53,895 bases of DNA from Patellaria atrata CBS 101060 (Eukaryota > Ascomycota > Dothideomycetes > Patellariales > Patellariaceae): assembly GCA_010093705.1 (NCBI GenBank), contig MU006108.1, forward strand, positions 328,843 through 382,737, written 5' to 3'. The position numbers and the translations under genes are program-made. Positions 2,003-33,380 of the stretch are shown in pieces (the first letter of the stretch is position 1; each line of letters begins with the position of its first letter). The notes under the pieces are model-generated. The model saw only the letters and a list, made by a program, of their open reading frames with translations, did not search any database and was not told where the DNA came from.

Positions 2003-5000
2003 ATTAATCTAGCTATTAAAAAGACTAATAGCTACTTTAATTAGACTTAATAAAAGGTTAAAGAGAAATATTAAAAATTTAGCGATAAAGTTAAATATAC
2101 TATTAATAATATCTAGTTAATTTTTAAGAAATTCTCTTAAAGATTAAAATAGTAAAACGACTCTAAATTCTTTAAAATCTTAAATAAAAAGATTAATCTA
2201 ATAGCTATAAACTTCTCTAATAATTTATCCTTTAAATTCTTAGTTAGTTTTTTACTAGATAGTGAGTTTAATATCCACGTTTATAATAATCTAGATATTT
2301 TTAAAATCGAATAAATAGAATTAGATTTAATATTTAAAATAGATTTTAAATCTATTCTAATTAAAGTTATTAAAAGCTTTAAAGTCTTTATAAATATATT
2401 ATATAAAAGAGACTATATCACTATAAATAACGTCTATTTATATCTATAATTTAGAATATCTCTAATTTTATAGTCTTAAACTTAAAAATAAAAAATATTC
2501 TATTATATATAAAAAAGGATCTTTAAGAATTTAGATAGAAACGAAATTTATAAAATTTATTTAATTAATACCCTATATATACTCTATTATATTAAGTTTA
2601 ATATTAATTAATAGCGCGTTATTATATTAACTCGCTTTATTTAATTAAGGCCGTTAATATTAACTCTTATTAAGAAATAGTATAAAATACTTATATATTT
2701 AGGATTTAAGACTCTCGAATATCTTTAAACGAATATAATTAAAGTTAAAATCTTTAGTAAAGATTTTATTATAATTAAATATAAAATTTACGCTTTAACT
2801 AAATTAATAAAGATTATTTTATAAAGATTAAAAGTTATTTTACTCGTAATAAAATCTTTTAAATAAGTTACTTTTAATCTTATTTACTTTAAAGATAGTT
2901 ATAATAGAAGTAAATACGTATCTCACTTCTATAATAAAGTTATTAGCTAATATAAAACCGTATTTTACACTTAAAAAAACTAAGTTAGCTAAATTTATAA
3001 ATATTTTATTATTTATATTAAAGCTCGATTTAACTATATAATTATCTATTTTAAATGTGATAATAAGAATATTTTTATAGTAGAATTTTACGATCTACTC
3101 GTCTTAAAAGATAATATATTAAAACTATTAATCTTTAGTATTTAGACTTAAAATAAAGATATTAAAACTTCTAGAAAAATATTAATAATAAAGATTTACT
3201 CTTTATAAATTAGTGTTAATTTATCTTATAATATCTAGATTAAATTAATTAATATAGCTATATATTTAGTTAATAGGACTTCTTAAAAACGGCTTAACTA
3301 GAAAATATCGTATAAAATAGTTATTAATAGGAAACTAGATCTTAATTATTTAAAAATATATAATTATAAAGTATATATTTTAAAAAAAGATATATCTAAA
3401 CTTTAAAAACTCGATTCACGTATCTATATTAACTATCTAATTAAATACGATTTATTAAATATCTTTAGAATCTAAATTCTTAATTATAAACACGTTTTCT
3501 TCTTAAAAGATATTTATTTTAATAAAAGCGAGTTATATAAATTTTAAGTTATTAATATTAATTATATTTTAAAGAAATTCACTAAAGATATTATTAATAT
3601 AATCGAGATACTAGCTAAATTTAAGACTATAGTCTTATAAGAAGATTTTCTAGTTATACTAAATAATAATAATAATTTTTTAAAATTAAAGATTACCTCT
3701 AAACTTATTTTTACTTTTAAAGATATAACTAAAAATAGTCTTATACTATTAGCTAATAGTAGTGTTATATCTATTTAAAGATTATTTAATTTTTATCTAT
3801 TTAACTTAAAAGCTATATTAGATAATATTAACCTTTAATAATAAATAATAACTTTTCTAAATTAGTATTATAACTTTTATAATATCTTAAATTTAACTTT
3901 TAAAGACTTATTTTATTAGCTTATTTAGAAGTTTACCTAAGATTTAATAAAGAATATTTAAGATATTTAGAATTTAGCTTAAAATAAACCTAATTTCTTT
4001 ATTTTATTAAATACTATAGCTTATATTAGAAGTTTATAAAATACGGCTCTACGAGTTAATTTAATCTTATTTAACTTTTTAGAATTAAATATACTAATTT
4101 CTAAATATCGTTATAACTAAATAAATTATAACGCGTTATTTATCTCCTTTTTAGCCTTTTAAAAACGTGAAATCTAACTAATAAATTAGTTATATAAAAG
4201 TTAGCTTCTTTTAATATTAAATAGTTAAAAGTAAGCTCTTAATTACCCTTTTAAATAAAATTAAATAATAGTAACTATTTAAGAGTATATTAAACTATAA
4301 TATTATAGTATATTTACTATTAAACGAAGATTTAATCTACTAGAAAGAACTTAAATAATTCCCTTAATTTAAATTTAAATATATAAATATAATAAAAAAG
4401 AATTTCTAATTAAATTTAAAACGCGACTTTATATTAAAGGCGATTTATAATATATAAATCTAGATATCTATATTATTATTCTAACTATATATACTATATA
4501 AGCTATATTATCGATTATAGCTACTTTTAACCTAATAACTTATTATTTAGATATTATAAACGTCTTTATAAATAATTTATTTAATAAAAAGATATATTAT
4601 ATTTTATCTAATAAATTTATAACTTTTAAATCTATTCTTTATCTTAAATAAACTTTATATAATTTTAAAAGATCTCCTTTATTTTAATAGAAGATATTAT
4701 CTAGATTCTTTAAAAATTTAAGTCTATTTAAAGTATTAGATATTAATTATTTATATATAAATAACTAGTTAATTATATTTTTTTATATAAATAATATAGT
4801 TTTACTTTACTTATTATACTATTCTAAAGAATTAAAAAAGTTAAAATTTAAATTAATAACTTAATATTTAATAAAAGATTTTAGAGATTTTTAATACTTC
4901 TTAAATATTTATATTATATATAATTTAGATATATATAAGTTATAGCTATATTAAGATATTTATTTTAAGAATATCTTCTTAAAATTTAAATTAATTAAAT

Positions 5001-6871: not shown

Positions 6872-7224
6872 CTAGATTAAGTTTATTTTTAACGATCTTT
6901 AAAAAGATAATATAATATTTTAACTAAAATATAATATTAATCTAATCGATAAATAATTATTAGATTAATCGGGGATTTATAAATAATTAAACTTTATAAA
7001 TAATAAGATATTTAATACTTAAAAGTAATAATATTAATAATAATAATAACCTAATATTTAAAAGAGATTAGAACTAATAAATATAAATTATTTAAAGAAG
7101 TAAATATTATAGTAAATTAAATTAAATAATTAAATTTTTAATAACTTTAATAAAATAGATAAATAATAAACTAATTATAAATTTAAAAGTAAAAAGTAAT
7201 ATTAAATTAAAAGAAAAAGAAAAA

Positions 7225-8596
7225 ATATATTAATATAAATTAACGCTAAAAATAGTCGATTAGTAAATTACTAATAATATTTTAAAAACGAATTTATAGA
7301 ATCTATTAAAAGAAATTCTCGAAATAATAGAAAAAGAGAAGTCTTTTAAATATATCACTATTATAAATAATCGAAACGTCGATATAATCGATAAAGTGAA
7401 GGAATAAATAGTTAAAAATCTAGATTAATTTATAATAAAATATCTTTATATAAAAGTAAAATTTATAGCTTAAAAAATATAATTTAGAAAAATAATAAAT
7501 CTTATTAACGAGATAATATCTAATTTATAGCTAAAATTATAAGTATATTAAATAAATAAAGAAACTATAAAACGCTTTTAAAATAAAATCGATAATTTAA
7601 AAAAAATAGACTAAATAATCTAAACTAAATTAAAAAAATATCTAGTTTAATAATAAATCTAATAATAAAGAATTATTAATATTATATAATTATAATAATT
7701 AAGTTAGAATAATCGATTTAACTAAAAGCTTTAAAAGTAAAGGCGATAATAAGATAAAAAAGTTCCCTAATTCATTAAAATTAATTAATAATAAAAAGCT
7801 AATTTATAAAAAATAGAAAAGTAAAATAAATAATAAACTTTATATTAATAGCGACTAGTTTTAAAATAAAAGAGCGAAGACTATTTATATTAAAATATAG
7901 ATTAATAGCGAGATAGTTAAATATATATATTTTTTTTTAAAATTAAAGAAGGATAATATAATTTTAATAAAGTTAATAAAATTTCTAAATTAAATTTATA
8001 AAAACTTAAATAAACGATTAAAAGCTAGAAATAAACTAAAAAAGTTAAAATAAAATTATTTAATAGACTTTTTAAAGTTTTAATTTATATTTATCTAGTT
8101 AGCTAATAAAGTTAGGTTATTATATAACTAGTGAAAAAAGGAACTTCACGATAAACTTTATAATAATTTAAAACTAATAATAATAAAAATTGTAAATAAT
8201 AATAAAATTAACTTTTAGAAATACTATAATAAAGTTATAATATAAATATAAAAGTTAAAAAGATTAAATAAAGTTAATAAAACTTATAAAAAGAGTAAAA
8301 AGAGTAAAAAATATAATAAATTAATTAAAATAATTTCTATCTTAATAATAATAAATAGAATTTTATATTAATTAAAAAATAGAGAAACTATCTTATTTAT
8401 AATACTATAAATAATAAAGTAGACTATAATTATTTAGAAGTTTATAGATAACTACTTTAATTATAATAAAGCTAGATATAAAGCGTTAAAATACTAAAAA
8501 TTAAAGAAAATAATTAAAGTAAAATTAATTTAAAAAGACGAGTATTAAAGTTTAAAATCTAATTTAAGATTAAATTTAGAAAATAAGAAACTCTAA
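7225..8596 (+). pseudogene. gag: Gag relic of E1
   Basis: It is colinear with Gag of copies F and A. The start codon has become ATA at 7225-7227 and the terminal stop lies at 8594-8596. About 10 bp of net length difference from the 1,362-bp consensus implies small indels as well as transitions. Cysteine codons of the zinc knuckle have become TAT/TAC-type. It is dead through many TAG/TAA stops. Confidence 0.8.
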
Positions 8597-15600: not shown

Positions 15601-16235
15601 TACACGTATAGCTATCACGAGATATAGCTTTCTAGACGATAAAGGCTATAAAGTATAGTAACTAGTATAGATCGCTAAAACCGATCTTTAAAAGAGGGAA
15701 TAAAGTTTACTTATTATAGAAAAATCTTAAAATAAAATAACCTAATAAGAAACTAGACTATAAGAAAATCGGCCCCTTTAGAATTAAATAGGTTAAAGGA
15801 GAAGTTAATTATAAATTAGAATTACTATAAGGAATAAAGATATATTTAGTTTTCTATATATCACTTCTAAAACTAGTATATACTAACGCTAAACTCTAAA
15901 TAAGACTTATAGAACTTAAGAAGGGAGATATCTATAAGATAAAATAAATCCTAAACCTATAATAAATAAATAATTAGTATAAGTATTTAGTAAAATGGAA
16001 AGGCTATAAATATATAGATAATACGTGGGAACTATTTAAGTATTTAACGAACTATAATTAAAAACTTAAATAGTTTTATCGTTAAAACTAGGGAATTCTA
16101 GACCCTCGAGGGTAAAGAAATCTAGATTAGACTAATTAAAGAGAGATACGATAGCGGAGGAAGAAGAAGCGACTAAGGAAACTCGCTATCTTTTAATTAT
16201 CTATTTTAAAGCCTTAAGTTCCTCGATAAAACTAA
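12640..16235 (+). pseudogene. pol: Pol of Gypsy-B copy B (PR-RT-RH-IN-chromodomain)
   Basis: Pol lies in -1 frame relative to Gag and all domains stay in one frame. The retropepsin is at about 12711-12750, with DSGATNSFISP intact. RT is at 13290-13960, with its catalytic YLDD changed to YLDN (13767-13778). RNase H is about 14190-14560. Integrase is about 14840-15600: a HHCC zinc region, then catalytic D near 15053, D in a SDRDKLF-like segment near 15255, and E in TERIN near 15355. The chromodomain is about 15930-16050 (VKWKGY then IDNTWE retained). The natural stop is TAA at 16233-16235. Internal TAG/TAA stops are RIP products. Order PR-RT-RH-IN with a C-terminal chromodomain defines a Ty3/Gypsy chromodomain element. 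Confidence 0.92.
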
Positions 16236-16605
16236 GCTTACGATAAATTATTTCGCCCTCCTTCTAATCGAGAAGTTAAAGCTACTATATTAATCGCTTC
16301 TTACGAGCGAAAGTCTCTAATATCCGGGCGTGTACGTTATTACGGGAAACTCGCGCCTTAACGAGCTTATAACGAAACTTAAATCGCGAAGCGTTTAGCT
16401 TATCCTAATCCTTTTATATCACTATAAGGTCGTATTTTAAACCACGAGCCACACACTTAGAATAGAAACCGGAAGAAAGATCGAGACGGTAAATACGAGA
16501 CTAACGATAATAAGTTGAATAGGGAGTAGGTATTAGTCGACTAGAGGATATAATTTAGGCTATAAGACGCCGATAACGAACTATATAAGATTTAGTTTAA
16601 GGTAT
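16036..16605 (-). pseudogene. RIP-killed antisense Zn2Cys6-type ORF of copy B
   Basis: This is the exact 570-bp counterpart, without indels, of the intact ORF at 26668-27237. The start codon has become ATA (16605-16603). Five of the six metal-binding cysteine codons have become Tyr (TGT to TAT or TGC to TAC); only the fifth remains TGT. CAG-to-TAG stops interrupt the frame, and the stop position itself is altered. Its 3' end overlaps the 3' end of pol (to 16235). It shows what RIP does to this gene when it is not spared. Confidence 0.85.
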
Positions 16606-24074: not shown

Positions 24075-25941
24075 ATAAGTAAAGATATTTACGAAACTTA
24101 ATATAAGATAAATATTCTACTAAATTTAGATAAAAAAGTTAGTCGAAAATCTTACTATCTTTTAAATAAAATATAAATTATTTAAGTATAAGGTATTATC
24201 TTTTAAATTATATAATAGTTTAGCCTTATTTTAATAATTTATTAATAAGGCGCTTTTCTAATATTTAAATAACTTCTATATAATATATATTAATAATATA
24301 TTAATTTATTTTAAGTATTTATTAGAGTATTAAATCTATATTATAAAAGTATTAAAAGTATTAATTAAGACCGGTTTATAAGATAATATTAAGAAAAACG
24401 AGTTTTATATAATAAAAATATAATTTCTTAGCTTTATTATTAGTATTAATAGAATAACGATAAATTTAGAAAAGATTAAAATAGTTTAAAACTAATAATT
24501 ATTAATAAATATAAAAGAAATTTTATTATTTAATAAATTTTATAACTTTTATTAAAAGTTTTTAGAGAAATTTAGATAAATTATATAACTATTAATAATA
24601 TAGATATAAAAAGAGATTTAAAAACTATTTAAATAAAAAGAAGAAGAGATATTTAAGAAAATAAAAAAGTTAATTCTATTAGATTAAATATTAATATATT
24701 ATAATCCTCTATTTAAGATAAAAGTTAAGTCTAACTATAATAATAAGATTATTATAGTAATTATATTATAACTTTATAAATATATTTAAAGGCTAGTTAC
24801 CTTCTAGACTAAGACGTTATTAGAGATAAAATTAAGATATAAAATCTATAATAAAGAAATATTAGCTATAATAAAAGCACTAGTCGAGTAAAGAAGTATA
24901 TTAATAAAGTTATAATAAATTTCCTTTACTATAATTATTAATTATAAAGTATTAAAATATTTTACTATAAAATAGTTACTTAATATTAGATAAGCTTAAT
25001 AAAATAAAGTTTTCTTTAATTTTCACTTCTAAATTATATATTAACTTAAAGCTTAAAATATCGTAATAAATACGTTTTCTCGTAAATAAGAAGATCTAAA
25101 AATAGTAAAAAATAAAGATATTATAGTATAAACCTAAATACTAATTAATTTAAATATAATAATAGTATCTTTTTAGCTCTTAATAAAATAATAACTATTA
25201 TTTAAGAAGATATCTTAAAGTAGTAAGAAATATATAATCTTTAAAAAGAGAATAATAGAAAAGTATACTTTAAAGTTAAAGTTTAAGGCCCGGATAGTGA
25301 TAACTAAAATAGCGATAACTAAATCTTTATAAGGGATAAAGAAAATTAAAACTTAAAATTAAAAATCTATAATAATTAAAATCTTAAAAGAAAGAAATAA
25401 TATATTAAAAAAGTGTATTAATTTTAATTTTAAACTAAAGTTTATATCTATTTACTTTATAATTTCTATTATAACTAAAAAAGAAAAGGAAGTTAAATAT
25501 AAGATAAAAAAAAGGAAAAATATATTTATAAATTTAAAGTAATATATTTAAAATAAGTTTAATTGAAAATAAAAGTTACTAATAATATACTTACTAATAA
25601 ATTAAATATTAGAAGTGAACTAGAAATATAATTCTTTATTAATATATTAAAAGTAAATTAAAGTTAAAGAAAAATATTAGAAACTATAAAACGATTTATT
25701 TATTAAATTTAATAGATTTATAGTTTTAGATATAAATAATTTTAGAATATATTTAATATAAGACGTGTATAACGCACTAATTATAGAATATCTAGAAATT
25801 AAGAAGACGAAAAAACTAATTTAAATATAATATTATTAACTCGAATTAGTAGCTAATATAGATAGATATATCCGAAACTATTATATCTATTATCGGACGT
25901 ATATATTAAAAGATAAAATCCTCGATTTACTAAAATTATTA
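24075..25941 (+). pseudogene. pol: Pol relic of E1, segment 2 (RT to integrase zinc region)
   Basis: It continues 9893 without loss, starting at the sequence read RAKIFTKLD in less damaged copies. It covers most of RT, RNase H and the integrase N-terminal zinc region, and stops where element C is inserted (target TATTA, 25937-25941). It continues at 33381. From about 24893 on it has an inverted partner at the right end of the window. Confidence 0.88.
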
Positions 25942-26308
25942 TATTATAACGGAAGTTTATACTTATTAAGACGGAACTAGATAAATCTAGAAACACGCCT
26001 AGCTTCTTATTTAACGTGGTTAACTATAAAGGTAGGTTTAGTAAAGTGATAGGATATATATAATAAAAGGCACTTTAAGTTATCGGTATAATTTACTAAC
26101 TTCTTAACTTCGAGTAATACTCTTAAAGAGATAAGACGTACTATATAGAAATAATATAATAAGTGAAGTTAAGTTTAAAACCGTAATATCCAAATCTATA
26201 GGTAAGATTAATAGTAAGAATAACTACGAAGAATCTAAATACATAAGAGAAAGACCGTCCTTAAATATTCCTATCCTCTATAGTCAATTTGGGGTGCTTA
26301 CACCCTTT

Positions 26309-26438
26309 TGGACGTGGTAGCCGTTCTAGACGTGGATCTCCTTCTACGTCCTTCACGTCCACTACGTCCATAACCTGGACGTCCTAGACGCGGTGGACGT
26401 GGATCCCCTCTCGCGTCCTTTGCGTCCATTGCGTCCAC
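26309..26438. repeat. Array of about eleven 9-bp GACGT/ACGTC units in the LTR
   Basis: In order on the + strand: TGGACGTGG, TAGACGTGG, TACGTCCTT, CACGTCCAC, TACGTCCAT, TGGACGTCC, TAGACGCGG, TGGACGTGG, CGCGTCCTT, TGCGTCCAT, TGCGTCCAC. Several are directly adjacent at 9-bp spacing, and units occur in both orientations. Such clustered short sites look like transcription-factor sites in U3. The array lies 230-360 bp upstream of the antisense ORF start, so it could serve both promoters. The factor is unknown. Degraded forms are in the other Gypsy-B LTRs except the solo LTR. Confidence 0.65.
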
Positions 26439-26446
26439 AGTTTCTA

Positions 26447-26456
26447 GTCACGTGAC
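26447..26456. promoter_or_regulatory. Palindrome GTCACGTGAC (E-box CACGTG)
   Basis: A perfect 10-bp palindrome, typical of bHLH or Cbf1-type binding. The CACGTG core is also intact in the LTRs at 9997-10002, 16819-16824 and 33272-33277, although CA and TG are the targets of RIP. It is lost in the solo LTR. Confidence 0.6.
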
Positions 26457-26552
26457 CCCTTGTTACTGGTTTCATCCGTGGTTCTCCCGAGTGGTGTTCC
26501 TACTTTCCCCTCACTCGTTGTCTGCATGTTCCTATAACTTGTGGCCGTAACA

Positions 26553-26570
26553 CTATCCTCCCCCTTCTCA
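26553..26570 (-). promoter_or_regulatory. Polypurine tract of copy C
   Basis: On the + strand CTATCCTCCCCCTTCTC abuts the LTR end, that is a purine-rich GAGAAGGGGGAGGATAG in element sense. It is unmutated and sets the form of the family's plus-strand primer. Confidence 0.8.
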
Positions 26571-26605
26571 ACTCTTGTCCCAAGAGTTTATTCCTTTTGC
26601 TTGGG

Positions 26606-26612
26606 TATAAAG
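26606..26612 (+). promoter_or_regulatory. TATA box of the antisense ORF
   Basis: TATAAAG stands 62 bp upstream of the ATG at 26668. A CT-rich stretch (CACCTCCTTTTCCTTTCTTC) follows just before the start codon, as is common at filamentous fungal transcription starts. The placement between LTR and ORF suggests that the gene has its own promoter. Confidence 0.55.
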
Positions 26613-26667
26613 TAGACGTGTTGCCCACCTATCAAGTCGTACGCACCTCCTTTTCCTTTCTTCTAAG

Positions 26668-27237
26668 ATGCCTCGAACTGAATCTCGCGCAGTTCGTCGT
26701 CGGCGTCTCGCAGCCCAAATTGTGTCCTCCGGTCGACTAATGCCCACTCCCTGTTCAACCTGTCGCCGTCAGTCTCGCACTTGCCGTCTCGATCTCTCTT
26801 CCGGCTTCTGTTCTAAGTGTGTGGCTCGTGGTTCAAAATGCGACCTTATGGTGACACAAAAGGACTGGGACAAGCTGAACGCTTCACGATCTGAGCTTCG
26901 TCGCAAGCTCGCTGAGGCGCGAGTTTCCCGTGACAACGCACATGCCCGGATGTTGGAGGCTTTCGCTCGTGAGGAGCGATTAATGCAGCAGCTCCAACTT
27001 CTCGATCAGAAGGAGGGCGAAATGATTCGTCGTGAGCTTAGTTCCATCGAGGAGCTTGAGGCTTTGGAGCGAGCAGCCGAAGGGCAGCGAGCTTCCTCGG
27101 TCGCTCCTTCTTCCTCCGCTGTCGTGTCTCCTTCTGGTTGGTCTGGTTTGGATTTCTCCGCCCTCGAGGGTCTGGAATTCCCTGGTTTTGGCGATGAAAC
27201 TGTTCAAGTTTCTGATCGCAATTCGTCAAATGTTTGA
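26668..27237 (+). CDS. Antisense ORF: Zn(II)2Cys6-type protein in Gypsy-B copy C, intact (189 aa)
   Basis: An intact gene on the strand opposite to gag-pol, between pol and the 3' LTR. The N-terminus is basic (RAVRRRRLAAQ, residues 7-17). Six cysteines at 29, 32, 39, 48, 51 and 58 give C-x2-C-x6-C-x8-C-x2-C-x6-C, exactly the fungal Zn(II)2Cys6 binuclear cluster spacing, with basic residues between the second and third Cys; the usual loop proline is absent. Residues about 67-140 are rich in E, R, L and A with heptad character, a probable coiled-coil dimerisation segment. The C-terminus is Ser-rich, then acidic and aromatic (GLDFSALEGLEFPGFGDE), like an activation tail. It has a TATA box and CT-rich leader. 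Its 3' end overlaps pol by 200 bp. A DNA-binding regulator of the element or host is inferred. At 189 residues it is short for this family and lacks the usual middle homology region. A Gag-like zinc protein is an alternative. Confidence 0.75.
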   Translation: MPRTESRAVRRRRLAAQIVSSGRLMPTPCSTCRRQSRTCRLDLSSGFCSKCVARGSKCDLMVTQKDWDKLNASRSELRRKLAEARVSRDNAHARMLEAFAREERLMQQLQLLDQKEGEMIRRELSSIEELEALERAAEGQRASSVAPSSSAVVSPSGWSGLDFSALEGLEFPGFGDETVQVSDRNSSNV

Positions 27238-30200
27238 GTGGTTCCCACGTGTTGTCTACGTGTTCGTAGCCTTTCCATTTTACTAAATACTTGTACTGAC
27301 CGTCGACTCGTTATAGGTCTAAGATCCGTTCTACCTCGTAGATATCTTCTTCCTCGAGTTCTATAGGTCGTGTTTGGAGTTTAGCGTTAGCATGTGCTGG
27401 TTCTAGGAGTGATATATGAAAAACTGGGTGTATCTTCATTCCTTATGGTAATTCTAACTCGTAATTGACTTTTCCTTTGACCTATTTAATTTTAAAAGGG
27501 CCGATTTTCTTGTGGTCTAGTTTCTTGTTAGGTCGTTTTGTTTTGAGGTTTTTCTATAACAAGTAAACTTTGTCCCCCCTTTTAAAGGTCGGTTCTAGCG
27601 ATCTATGCTAATTGCTGTACTTTGCAGCCCTTGTCGTCTGGAAAGCTATATCTCGTGATAGTTATGCGTGCAATTCTTTGATTTGCCCGACTTTTAACGC
27701 TACTTCTTATAAGATACTCTAAACTGTTCTTGGCTCACGATATACCTCTAGTTCGAAACTATAGTTCGTATAGAAGGGTGAAACCTTCGTAGTATCGGAT
27801 TTCGCGCTATTATATGCGAATTATACTATTGATAGTAGCTCTACCTAGTTATTCTACTAGTAATTCATATAGTTGCGTAAGTATTGCTCTAGAGATTAGT
27901 TTATTCTTTCAGTCTAGCCATCCGTTTATAGGTGAAAGCTCGTTAATAGCTTATAGTTTACCCCTAAACTCTATACTAGAGTCTACTAAAACGCTAATTT
28001 AAATAGTTTATCTCTATCTAAGATAATCTCTCTTAGTATCTAGTGATTTGCTAGCACTATTTTTATCACTAATACTACTACTTATAATGCTATTATCGTT
28101 ATCTTTACTAGTATAAAGTAGGTGAACTTTATTAATCGCTCCACGATAACTAATATCGTGTTATACTCTACTTCTATTACTGGATCTTTAGATCCTAGTA
28201 GACCTATAATAAAGTCCATTATTATTAAGTCTTAAGCTCGCTTTAGTGGCTTAATATATTATATTTATCTATAGGATATATGTTTTACACTCTTATTCCG
28301 TGCGTAGTTATTACACTTTAAGATAACTTACTTCACTATACTTCTTACTTTTAGGAAATAGTAATTCCTTAGGATTCTTTCTAAGGTTTTATTAATACCC
28401 TAGTAACTATACGTTAGTGCTTTATAGATCTCTTTAGTAAGGGTCTTTCGTAGTATCGTTAGTATATATATAAGTCTATCGTATAGCTATATTTCTTAAG
28501 CTATTTATATTACCCTAAAGTCGTTATTCTTTCTAAACTCCTCTATTATACTATTCTTCTAATAGATATCACGAATTTATTATTCTCTCGTGGATTCGAT
28601 TATTAGTATTATAGCTAATTTTAGCTAATTATAGGTGATCGCGTTATTTTCTTTCTTTAGTACTATATTATATATTAGTTTCGTTTCTTCTAGGTAGTCG
28701 AATCTTCTACTTATAGTATTAGCTAGTTTATTTTCGACTTTTAGTCTATAAAATATTTTGAAGTTAAAGGATACGAGTGTTTCCGCCCACCTTACTTATC
28801 TTCGATTTAACTTCTTTATCGTGAGGAAGTTTATTAGGTTTTAGTGATCTAACTAAACTTTTATAGTGTACTTAGGTCCTTTAAGGTATAACTTTCACTA
28901 TTCGAATACGTCGATAATTGCTAATAATTCCTTATCGTGTATATCGTAGTTTAGCTTTACGGCCGTGAACTTTCGCGAATAAAAGGCTATTAGATATAAT
29001 CGTCCTTTCTCGTCTAGCTAACTTATATATACACCTAGTGTATAATTAGATACGTTAGTCTTTAGCACTATCGATTTCTCTAGGTTAAATATAATTAAGA
29101 TAGGTGCTATAGTGAATTTCTTCTTAAGTTTATTAAATACTTTCTATATCTTCTCTATCTAAACGAAGGTATTTTCCTTCTTTATTAACTCTAATAGCGG
29201 CGTTATTACCCTCGAGTACCCCTAGATAAACTTTCTATAGTAGTTCGCGAAATCTAAAAACGATTATATATCTTTTACGTTTTTTAGTATTAGCTAATCT
29301 TGGATTACGGTTATCTTTTTTAAGTCTACTCGTATACCTTTAATGGTAACGATAAAGCCTAGGAATTCCGTTTCTTTAATATAGAATTTACACTTATTTA
29401 GGTGTATTAGAAGTCTCTTTTCCCGTAGTTTCGTTAATATTTTCTTTATATACTCCCTATACTCTTCGAATATTCCGTTTATATATACTAGTATATTATC
29501 TAGATAAATAGTTATAAATACGTCTAAATACTCTCTTAGTATATAATTAATCACTATTTAGAACGTTACTAGGGCGTTAATTAAGCCGAATAGTATCACT
29601 ATATATTCGTATAGTCTAAACCTCGTTCTTATAACTATCTTCTATTCTTCGCCTTTTTTTATTCTAATTCGATAGTAACCGTCTCGGATATCGAATTTCG
29701 TAAACTATTTTACTCCTTATAACCTATCCTAGATTTCTAAGATTAAGGGTAATAGATATCTATTCTTAATTATAGTGTCGTTTAGCTATCTATAGTTAAT
29801 ATATAATCTTAGCTAGCTATTCTTCTTTAATATAAATAAAATCGGTGAAGCTATTAGACTTTCGCTAGGTCGTATATATTCCTTTTCTAGGTTAGTATAA
29901 ATATATTCTTTAAGTGCTTTATATTATTCTCTTATTAACGGGTAAATTAGATTAGGTCGTAATTTTATACCCTTCTTTAGCACTATTTTATAATCCTATA
30001 TCTAGTAATTTAGAAGTATAGTCGCTATATTTTCTTTAAATAAATCTTTAAACTCGCTATACTTTTCAGGTATTTTAGGTTCTTCGGAAACCTTTTTAGC
30101 GTTTACTTTTCTAAGCTATACTACTCTTACGCTCTTAGGTTTATTTCTATAGATCTTTATTATCTTATAGTGCGAAATACGTTCTATAGATATACTAGCG

Positions 30201-32733
30201 TCTATCTATTTAGTACGCCTTATTCGCTTAACTTTATTCTTTTATAAGGTGTCTCGATTAATCTAGATACTTCTTATCTTCTAGTTAATATCTAGATTTA
30301 TTATTTATAACTAGTCTATCTCTAGAATTATATCTATATCTTCTAGATTAGTTATAAGGATACGTTAAGTAGTTACCTTCCCTTATATATTAACTTTTAC
30401 CGGTATAGTCTTAAAGTTAATTAGACCTCGTCTATATCCTATTTCTTCGCTATTTCCTAGTCGCAACGGGACTAGATTCTTAAATTTCACGTAAGGTATA
30501 CTCTTCTTTTCTACCTATCGGGGTGAGATAAACGAATCGGTGGCGTCACTATTAACTAGCGCTATCGTTCTCTTACCGTATATAGTAACATCTATTTAAA
30601 GCGTTTTATCGTTACTTCGTAGGGTTTTAAGAAATTTAGGAGCTATACTTCTCGATCGTTTCTATCTCGAGTGGCTTAGTAGTTTTTTATATAGCTATAC
30701 GTTAGATAACCGGGTTCTATACACTTAGCCTAGTGTAGTCTATCGTGTCTATCGTAATACGGGCCTTTACGGTGTTCTTCGTATTCGGGCTCTCGACACT
30801 CTCTCTTAATAACTACGTCGTGGCTAGGGTTACTTTTAATTTCTACTCTCCACCTCTATACTATATAATAGTTATACTATATACCTTTTATTATATATTA
30901 TCCGAAGTCTTATATATTATACTTAGTAACGTGTTTAGGTACTTCTTTATCGTTTTAGAGTACTTTTATCTCCCACGGGAATACTTTTCCTTTATAGAAC
31001 TCTTCTTCTAATCCTCTATAGTACTAATAATCCGTGCTATATTCGTAGTCTTCCCATATTATTACTATATATCTTATATAGATTAGTGTTTAATAGTGTC
31101 GCCTACACCTAAACTTATCTATATAGTCGAAACTATCGTACTTTCTATAATCGCCTATTAGTGGTTCGAGTTCTTAATTCTTTTCAGTTTTTCTTATTTT
31201 ATCTTCATAGATTTTATATCCTTTCACCTAGCATTCGCCTTTAGGTAAATATATATAAGTAGGGTCTCGATCCCTAAACTTCGTTATAGCCTTCTACTAT
31301 TTATAGTATAAGTAGTTATCCTCTTTATATTATATCTATCGAAAGGCTAAATAGTCTTCTATCCTCGGTATAAGGTTCAATTATTATTCTTCGATAATCG
31401 CGTCGGTATTAGATTTAGGTTCGATCGGTTCCTAATCTTAGAACTCTTATTCAAGCTAACGTTATTATTCTATAATCCGGTATATAAGGCTTAGTCCGTT
31501 AGATATTAATACTCTAATTCTCTAACCCTAGTTCTATACTAGGTATTCTAATACTATATATATATATACGTTTCTATACGCCTAATATTGTTAGTTATCT
31601 AAACGTTATCGGAGTGTTTCCTCCTCTAGCTAGTTTCCTACTATTAGGAACGACGTTAATAGCTTACTTACCTCTATTTAGTAGGGTAGCGGTATTTCCT
31701 TAATCTCTTCTTCTTCGAGCGATAAGACTAGTGATAGTGGTGTTAGGTGTATAACTCTAAGTTATATACGTCGGTTATATCGCGAGGATAGTTACGTCTT
31801 CTATAGATAGTCTCTCTTAAAATGTCCCATTTCTCTATATTATAGATATACTTTATTTATAAAGCGCTCTTTTTCTTCTTAGATAAATTATCGTTATTTC
31901 TTTAACTTCTTTTATTTTATTTATTATAGTCGATCGAGGTCTATCGAGTCCCCCTAATCTTATCTATTTATAGCCTTTATTACCTTCTTTCTATATTTAA
32001 CTATAATATTCTTCCGTCCTCCCTTTTCCTATCTACGCTTATATAACCTATTATCTATTCTAACTACTAAGGTCACTACGTCCTATATTATTATTAGTCT
32101 CTTATAATAAACCCATTTATCCTTCACTTCTTCCTTTAAACCTTAATAGAAAGCGATTATTAGTGATTTATCGGGCTAACCTAATATTAATACTACTTAT
32201 TAGAACGTAGTCGTATACTTTAAGGCTAACCCTTTCTATCTAAGTCCTTAAAGCTTTCTTTTAGCTACTTATTATTTATCGACTTCCCTAAAAATATTCT
32301 TAAGCGTTTCTTTAAACTTCGGAAATAACTTAAAGATCTTTATTATTTCGTCTTTTTAGTGTTTTTCGCTATTCTTAAAATAGTCTCGTGTAATAGGTTT
32401 AAACCATTCTAGAGCGTCTTCTTTAAGGTACGCTAATATATCGAGTACACGTTCACTATCGTCCGTTAACCCTATTCTTTTATAATAAATCCTCACCTAG
32501 ATTAAGAATCCTCTTAGCTCGTCTCGTTTACTATCGTATAGTGTGGGTTCTTTAACTTTCGCGGTTCGCTTTTATAATAAGAGTAACTATACGGTAAGTT
32601 GTTCGAGTTAGCCCCTAAGTTCTTAAACTATCCCTTCATTTTCGAGTTCGCTAATACGTTTATATAACGCTTAGATATATTCTTTATCCGTCTTCGTGTT
32701 AGCTACGGCTAACGATATCGTGTCTAAGTCTAT
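27038..32733 (-). pseudogene. Gag-Pol of Gypsy-B copy C
   Basis: Mirror of copy B (position = 43273 - x). The gag start, now ATA, is read at 32733-32731 and the zinc knuckle lies near 31795-31851. The protease is at about 30527-30562 (DSGA damaged to NSDA). RT is about 29313-29983, partly open at 29294-29554 with YLDD damaged to YLDN. RNase H is near 28713-29083, integrase near 27673-28433 and the chromodomain at about 27223-27343. The Pol C-terminus after the chromodomain is unmutated: a basic, Gln/Arg/Pro-rich tail of about 65 residues ending in TAA at 27040-27038. Upstream parts are full of RIP stops, so no functional polyprotein remains. Confidence 0.9.
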
Positions 32734-32764
32734 TATACGCTTTCCTACTATATGGTAGTTATAA

Positions 32765-33375
32765 TGTTATAACGGGAGTCTATACTTATTAAGACGGAAC
32801 TAGATAAGTCTAGAAACGCGCCTAGCTTCTCACTTAACGTGGTTAACTATAAAGGTAGGTTTAGTAAAGTGATAGAATACGTATAATAAAAGGCACTTTA
32901 AGTTATCGGTATAACTTACTAACTCCTTAACTTCGGGTAATACTCTTAAAGAGATAAGACGTACTATACGGAAATAGTGTAATAAGTGAAGTTAAGTTTA
33001 AAACCGTAACATCCAAATCTATAGGTAAGATTAATAGTAAGAATAACTACGAAGAATCTAAATATATAAGGGAAAGACCGTCCTTAAATATTCCTATCCT
33101 TTATAGTTAATTTAGGGTGCTTACACTCTTTTAGACGTGGTGGCCGTTCTAGATATAGATCTTCTTTTACGTCCTTCACGTCCATTATATCTATAACCTA
33201 GACGTCCTAGACGCGGTGGACGTGGATCCCCTCTCGCGTCCTTTACGTCCATTACGTCCATAGTTTCTAGTCACGTGACCCCTTATTACTAGTTTTATCT
33301 ATGGTTCTCCCGAGTGGTGTTCCTACTTTCCCCTTACTCATTATCTATATATTCCTATAACTTATGGCCGTAATA
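32765..33375 (-). repeat. 5' LTR of copy C
   Basis: 611 bp, TGTTATAACGGG start intact and GGCCGTAATA end, followed by TATTA. The half corresponding to the unmutated part of the 3' LTR is visibly RIP-mutated here, so the two LTRs diverged after insertion. CACGTG is retained at 33272-33277. Confidence 0.95.
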
Positions 33376-33380
33376 TATTA

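Follow-up and report, generated by a model that had tools for sequence, protein, structure and literature searches.

The role of antisense ORFs located near the 3' LTR is unsettled in plant retroelements (PMC7264820, PMC11963269). In Gypsy elements of the Retand group, TRP28 proteins with predicted DNA binding are encoded antisense in the interval from pol to the 3' LTR, and a regulatory role of the Retand antisense proteins was suggested by comparison with retroviral antisense genes (PMC11963269). The antisense ORFs of maize Grande (gene23), rice RIRE2 and PvRetro13 occupy the same position and orientation as the ORF analysed here, and that of Grande is transcribed from its own upstream promoter into a nuclear product; according to the same review, these ORFs have no described similarity to other proteins and no known role (PMC7264820). 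A retroviral counterpart is HBZ of HTLV-1 (mentioned in PMC11963269), a regulatory protein of the nucleus whose gene is antisense in its retroelement. In fungi, crapaud of Podospora is a chromodomain element that undergoes RIP and forms LTR subfamilies, differing mainly in U3, the cause of which is likewise unsettled; LTR subfamily and internal region were reported to be little associated (PMC10787394).

Here we describe an antisense ORF of a chromovirus in the genome of Patellaria atrata (28.3 Mb in 46 contigs; the one fungal genome covered). The window, a stretch of 53.9 kb, is the end of contig C20. The ORF belongs to an element referred to as copy A (Table 1); its relatives in the same genome carry L numbers and fall into three types, as described below. 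Copy A is a Ty3/Gypsy chromovirus as judged from its LTRs, target duplication, chromodomain at the end of pol and the domain set of its relatives. A TATTA target duplication borders it on either side (25937-25941; 33376-33380), and the terminal TG and CA are each present in one LTR, with TA in the other. The gag-pol of copy A is on the minus strand. The gag, protease, RT, RNase H, integrase and chromodomain regions were identified piecewise in L024, L026 and L032, the chromodomain also in the window, and the core integrase match (rve) stayed below its Pfam cutoff. Along the plus strand, the 3' LTR side is arranged in the order R-U5, U3 array, the remaining U3, which contains GTCACGTGAC and extends to 26552, the leader with polypurine tract and TATA box, extending to 26667, ORF codons 1-124, and ORF tail with chromodomain.

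Table 1. Features of copy A and of its antisense ORF in the window
Feature	Position	Strand	Basis
Ty3/Gypsy chromovirus copy A, complete, RIP-damaged	25942..33375	-	LTR alignment, flanks, domains in relatives
3' LTR, 611 bp	25942..26552	-	LTR alignment
5' LTR, 611 bp	32765..33375	-	LTR alignment
R-U5 side of LTR, conserved in three types	25942..26290	-	2-4 transversions of 190-191 in 16 copies (compared over 26100-26290; L034 misaligned, L024, L026 and L032 not included)
U3 repeat array, type 1	26291..26446	.	Motif counts (164 bp, 26291-26454)
GTCACGTGAC, CACGTG palindrome at array edge	26447..26456	.	Present in window, L026 and L040, less mutated copies covering the three types
Polypurine tract, immediately before 3' LTR	26553..26574	-	Position and composition
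TATAAA box, starting 62 bp 5' of the ORF ATG	26606..26611	+	Sequence
Antisense ORF, 189 aa from ATG, zinc-cluster/coiled-coil/acidic-tail protein	26668..27237	+	ORF list, dN/dS, Cys codons
Zn2Cys6-type cluster, codons 29-58	26752..26841	+	Spacing and Pfam Zn_clus profile
Long helix/coiled coil, codons 64-144	26857..27099	+	AlphaFold2
Acidic, aromatic tail, codons 153-189	27124..27234	+	Composition
pol chromodomain (PF00385), E 2.9e-13, antisense to last ORF codons	27191..27304	-	Pfam profile
ORF remnant in second type-1 copy (B)	16042..16605	-	61% identical, 13 stops

Alignment of the two LTRs of copy A (618 aligned bp, reaching 6 bp and 1 bp past the LTR) gave 53 transitions and one transversion, the latter (25940) falling outside the LTR. 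The changes of C were most often located before A (25 of the 52 counted), as is typical of RIP. Since the differences are nearly all transitions (53/54), no age clock was put on the LTRs. In the window copy, the G+C content per 300-bp bin is 27-38% for gag-pol and 52-56% for the ORF; in the less mutated L026 and L032, that of gag-pol is 35-47%. The ORF is open in the window copy probably because this end of the copy escaped most RIP. Adjoining the element copy L024, an open frame of 236 codons with Lys/Glu-rich coils was observed (L024 8426-9136, +), which we take to resemble the end of a pogo/Fot1-type transposase.

The antisense ORF is the sole closed ORF of at least 150 aa among those listed for the window. 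Its cysteines at 29, 32, 39, 48, 51 and 58 form the pattern C-x2-C-x6-C-x8-C-x2-C-x6-C, conforming to the Zn2Cys6 (PF00172) consensus C-x2-C-x6-C-x5-12-C-x2-C-x6-8-C. In all six frames of the window this spacing gave a single match, the ORF itself, and it appeared in none of 20000 shuffles of the 189-aa protein. The N-terminus is basic (net charge +12 over residues 1-58), and the tail (153-189) has a net charge of -5 and four aromatic residues. AlphaFold2 with a five-row alignment predicted a single helix over residues 64-144, mostly at pLDDT above 90; the Cys region was modelled free of zinc at pLDDT of about 50, with low-confidence helices at 30-34 and 49-54. A reading made earlier from the sequence only had described a 189-codon ORF with six cysteines in exact Zn(II)2Cys6 spacing, followed by a coiled-coil-like segment and an acidic/aromatic tail and preceded at 62 bp by a TATA box, and all of these parts were found as described. 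Fungal Zn2Cys6 transcription factors such as Gal4 and AflR likewise have this Cys spacing, a coiled coil after it and an acidic region.

In the Zn_clus profile search, which the sequence-only reading had proposed as a check, the corresponding piece of the type-2 relative L026 scored 21.8 bits, above the Pfam cutoff of 21 bits, and the window protein scored below it (17.1 bits for residues 1-70; 14.1 bits, E 0.051, for the whole protein, on which chance-like coiled-coil families scored alike at E 0.052-0.055). Neither PF04195 (the TRP28 domain) nor bZIP was present among the Pfam matches listed at E up to 10. A Foldseek search of the AlphaFold2 model against PDB gave no match, and the PDB sequence search with the ORF protein gave one match at chance level (E 1.7). 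Among the annotated 'hypothetical proteins' of other Pezizomycotina there may be short ones that resemble the ORF protein in Cys pattern and tail; if these exist, the protein is less novel and the novelty of the covariation described below is unaffected.

From the position of the chromodomain (27191-27304, -), the ORF and pol are convergent genes with an overlap of ~15 ORF codons. The ORF had been placed between pol and the 3' LTR, and this placement is only partly right, as the last ~15 codons are opposite the pol chromodomain. Past the chromodomain the pol frame is open to 27041 in the window, opposite ORF codon 125; in L024 it is open opposite codons ~60 to 156, and in L026 opposite codons 1 to ~166 of 200. 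The stops that break this extension may come from RIP. On the L026 sequence (3000-3686, -), most of the antisense ORF faces an open pol frame, which continues as far as the masked LTR. With such a long open pol frame in L026, the antisense ORF might be spurious, a mere shadow of a C-terminal pol extension. The frame-wise dN/dS values, which rest mainly on one subfamily pair and include transitions inflated by RIP, do not agree with this view. For codons 1-87, comparison of the window (type 1) with L026 (type 2) gave a dN/dS of 0.34 in the plus frame, the lowest of the six frames, against 1.57 in the pol frame; for codons 88-124, the values were 0.29, again the lowest of six, and 0.95 (Fisher p for constraint in the plus frame, 7e-5 and 0.006, respectively, on rounded counts). 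Throughout the region beyond the chromodomain, the pol frame gave 0.95-1.76 in this one pair of subfamilies, which is no constraint. The pol-extension reading of the ORF region is disfavoured accordingly, and together with the Zn_clus match of the type-2 relative L026 this makes a spurious ORF highly improbable.

The frame comparison was extended to codons 125-189 with four copies, where changes are few and the six pairs are not independent. For codons 125-173, the synonymous rate exceeded the nonsynonymous rate of the plus frame in 6/6 pairs, in the weakest pair barely (2 of 37.7 vs 5 of 103.3), and no such excess was observed in the pol frame, apart from a marginal one in the pair just named. 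Over codons 174-189 the situation was reversed, with constraint in the pol frame in 6/6 pairs. Around codon 173, the antisense protein therefore gives way to the chromodomain as the object of selection. Judging from the pattern of codon substitution, the plus frame is under purifying selection. The Cys codons were conserved as well: in 21 of the 22 copies known (codons 1-61; L032 left out), 125 of 126 Cys codons read TGY or its RIP product TAY, the remaining one being TAA, and codons unchanged in purine/pyrimidine terms in all 21 copies amounted to 5/6 for Cys and 18/55 for the others (Fisher p 0.025). The same constraint bears on the idea that the product is the antisense transcript and not a protein, acting through dsRNA or interference with gag-pol. 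This idea would suit the convergent overlap with pol, and antisense RNAs have been proposed as regulators in plant elements (PMC7264820); we consider it very unlikely in view of the constraint at the level of codons and frame and of the Cys conservation.

By tblastn of the ORF against the own genome, 23 matches were obtained; two of these are the halves of a single copy, which makes 22 copies in all. Homologous gag-pol was present on the expected side in all 22, and the ORF was in antisense position near the 3' LTR in 22/22 copies found, the search by ORF yielding ORF-bearing copies only. The homologue check proposed in the sequence-only reading, whether relatives sit antisense beside Gypsy 3' LTRs, thus came out in its favour within this genome, as did its view of an element gene rather than a capture in one copy. 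Its description of an intact antisense gene holds in part: the ORF is open throughout in the window copy, which is only one of the 22 and has RIP-damaged gag-pol, and is broken or incomplete in the other 21. The Cys pattern is preserved in three divergent subfamilies. A host zinc-cluster gene might have been captured once by the element, and the Patellaria atrata genome contains at least 67 Zn_clus matches, a number that together with the RIP-like damage suggests a filamentous ascomycete. However, all 15 matches listed (E up to 10) for the type-2 zinc-cluster piece in the own genome, searched in six frames without introns, were copies of the element, and the gene is common to the three divergent subfamilies; such a capture is hardly credible as a recent event, and could have happened long ago. 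Relatives were looked for also in viral contigs (73 pattern matches) and in prokaryote genome contigs (205 pattern matches), with none confirmed.

The copies were clustered separately by the U3 array and by ORF codons 1-124, using 20 of the 22 copies (L032, whose ORF start reads N, and L034, with unusable U3, were left out). At a cut of 10%, which was set once the types had been recognised by visual inspection, both blocks gave the same three groups in 20/20 copies: type 1 (n=7), type 2 (n=11) and type 3 (n=2). At 8% the two type-3 copies were separated by the ORF and not by U3, and at 5% L037 and L039 were separated from type 2 by U3 and not by the ORF. Between types 1 and 2, transversions amounted to 5.1-14.7% in the U3 array and 8.3-12.6% in ORF codons 1-124. 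Within type 1 the respective levels were at most 1.2% and 1.3%, and within type 2 at most 9.8% and 5.7%, the internal U3 distances of type 2 overlapping the between-type range. The Mantel correlation between the two blocks was 0.85 (p 1e-4, 9999 permutations; descent ignored). The U3 of L026 was taken from the 5' LTR, since its 3' LTR reads N, and so was that of L024, in which a run of N in the leader blocked the anchor although the array of the 3' LTR can be read. Manual placement was used for the array end in L040 and in the second L036 copy, and for the ORF block of that L036 copy. This covariation fits the earlier suggestion that the gene product may control the LTR; the control of host genes, suggested as an alternative, gained no support.

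The 213 bp between the two variable blocks hardly differ between types 1 and 2. When the window was compared with 11 type-2 copies, we observed 0-1 transversions in the 108-114 bp of leader with the TATA box, 1-3 over 74-99 bp of remaining U3 and 0-2 over 260 bp of ORF tail; with nine type-2 copies, R-U5 showed 2-3 in 191 bp (L034 misaligned and unused, L026 reading N). The alignment behind these counts excluded the leader of the type-1 copy L024, a run of N, and the second L036 copy. The spacer of type 3 has diverged too (leader, 6-8 of 107; rest of U3, 8-11 of 81-83), and the contrast between blocks and spacer therefore rests on types 1 and 2. In a sliding profile of 15-17 copies of these two types (without L032, L034, the second L036 copy and type 3), the pair-averaged difference between types was 9.2% at 26342-26541, 10.0% at 26742-26941 and 0.2% at 27142-27341. 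The profile was used only for 26142-29141; beyond ~29 kb, within-type values reach 3-9% because nested insertions misplace segments. Between L026 and the window, most of gag-pol showed 0-1 transversions per 150 bp, with a maximum of 3, and the bins of ORF codons 1-124 showed 13-26.

A different pattern was observed for one patch of gag-pol. In three 150-bp bins, the type-1 window differed from L024 by 7, 8 and 3 transversions, and the type-2 L026 from L029 by 3, 11 and 4, whereas the window (type 1) differed from L026 (type 2) by 0-1 per bin. The variable patch is at L026 ~7200-7650, where as many as 11 transversions per 150 bp separate L026 from L024 and L029. By these counts gag-pol recombines between copies, the patch not following the type and the two blocks following it. 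Such recombination could also account for the covariation as a mere linkage of lineages, if types 1 and 2 are old, the rest of the element was homogenised between them, and U3 and ORF came to differ by chance, the function of the ORF being unrelated to U3. U3 subfamilies without reported regulator are described for Podospora crapaud (PMC10787394). Homogenisation, however, would have to have reached the 213-bp spacer and neither of the blocks on its two sides, and we regard this course as quite unlikely. Somewhat unlikely is also that the ORF encodes a nucleic-acid-binding accessory protein acting elsewhere, in packaging, nuclear entry or integration, with the U3 differences independent of it. 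Selection and Cys conservation suit any zinc-dependent function, and the basic N-terminus would be in line with such a protein; the identical clustering of the two blocks in 20/20 copies and the hardly diverged stretch between them in types 1 and 2 argue against it.

The arrays of the types were compared with respect to sequence motifs, of which the counts are inflated by tandem duplication. The type-1 array contains 10 (A/G)CGTCC or GGACG(C/T) sites in 164 bp, against 0.46 expected from dinucleotide shuffles. In type 2a (L026), three TTTGGTCG-N7-CGACCAAA copies are present in an 86-bp tandem unit, in addition to 8 ACGTCC, and the dyad GTCG-N7-CGAC was counted 3 times against 0.02 expected from dinucleotide shuffles. 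Type 2b (L029) carries TAGTCGT-N5-ACGACTA twice and lacks ACGTCC. L026 and L029 are 1.1% apart in the ORF block and nearly alike in the zinc-cluster part, the ORF of L029 being 18 codons shorter within the coiled coil; they have the GTCG-N7-CGAC dyad in common and differ in the remaining array. Since ACGTCC is common to types 1 and 2a, wholly separate sites are less likely. The classical half-site CGG/CCG is below expectation in the less mutated arrays. AflR-type sites are TCG-N5-CGA, near the type-2 dyad TCG-N7-CGA. The tandem repeats of the array could bind host factors, and GTCACGTGAC may be where a conserved host factor binds.

Genome-wide, the exact 15-mer dyad occurs 12 times, each time beside LTR sequence of the same element family by position. 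The type-1 pattern with up to two mismatches occurs 48 times, against 14 for the reversed control; its places on C5, C8, C17, C20, C29, C31 and C40 are LTRs of the same family as far as the best 40 LTR candidates scored can tell, and this assignment does not extend to others such as those on C7, C10, C14 and C26, so that a role at host promoters is conceivable. The R-U5 piece gave 160 first-look candidates, of which the best 40 were scored. With the U3 piece, 23 of the best 40 scored matches cover only the part from base 123 on, and further array types therefore probably exist. Two type-1 U3 regions, 96% and 95% identical to that of the window, are located ~3.5 kb apart on C5 (3941-4202 and 7100-7707), and the ORF search listed no match at either place. 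This pair may mark a shortened relative, non-autonomous and conceivably driven in trans.

We propose, at a probability of about 55%, that the antisense ORF encodes a zinc-cluster regulator matched to the LTR of its own element. The TATA promoter just inside the 3' LTR would give a short mRNA antisense to gag-pol. The coiled coil would serve for dimerisation of the protein, and the Zn2Cys6 cluster would bind the repeated sites of the U3 array. The array is present in both LTRs and is located upstream of gag-pol in the 5' one and of the antisense gene in the 3' one, so that one protein could set the expression of gag-pol and, by feedback, its own. From the acidic, aromatic tail, activation appears more likely than repression by roughly three to two. 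The DNA-binding part and the U3 array would then form a matched pair that differs between subfamilies. This proposal builds on the observed gene and element, selection on the frame, Cys conservation and covariation of two separated blocks. The regulator part of it is limited by the Zn_clus score of the window protein below cutoff and by the pLDDT of ~50 in the Cys region, and the covariation could be lineage linkage. On a more tentative level, at somewhat less than even odds, fungal chromoviruses would carry a specificity-switching antisense transcription factor, of which the DNA-binding domain and the LTR operator array diversify as a pair, each subfamily driving its own LTRs and ignoring those of competitors in a self/non-self control within a single retrotransposon family.

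Compared with Gal4 and AflR, the ORF protein is encoded by a retrotransposon and has 189 aa, and the sites of the array are not classical CGG triplets. HBZ is a bZIP protein and not a zinc cluster, encoded by a retrovirus of people. Unlike the present chromovirus, Retand is a plant element of a non-chromovirus lineage with the PF04195 domain, for which the window ORF gave no match; a matching of protein type and U3 type is not described in the text examined on Retand (PMC11963269). For crapaud of Podospora, two ORFs (gag and pol) are drawn, and the words antisense and zinc are absent from the text examined of that paper (PMC10787394). Likewise, the words antisense, opposite, zinc and transcription factor are absent from the examined text of 'LTR Retrotransposons in Fungi' (PMC3248453). 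Among the titles and abstract openings listed from the open-access literature (at most 20 of up to 853 papers per query), none reports a fungal retrotransposon with a zinc-cluster or antisense ORF; full texts, subscription papers and most preprints may differ.

Antisense ORFs at such a position are already known in plant Gypsy elements (Grande, Retand), and the covariation of U3 and ORF is new. One gene, in which a DNA-binding domain can be recognised and which changes together with a candidate operator array, may join the two questions of what antisense ORFs near the 3' LTR do and why LTR subfamilies differ in U3. If specificity-switching factors of this kind exist, they would account for U3 subfamilies like the ones of crapaud. 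If the proposal of a matched regulator is right, a retrotransposon carries its own, from a class of transcription factors that is characteristic of fungi, and its host could come to borrow such regulators.
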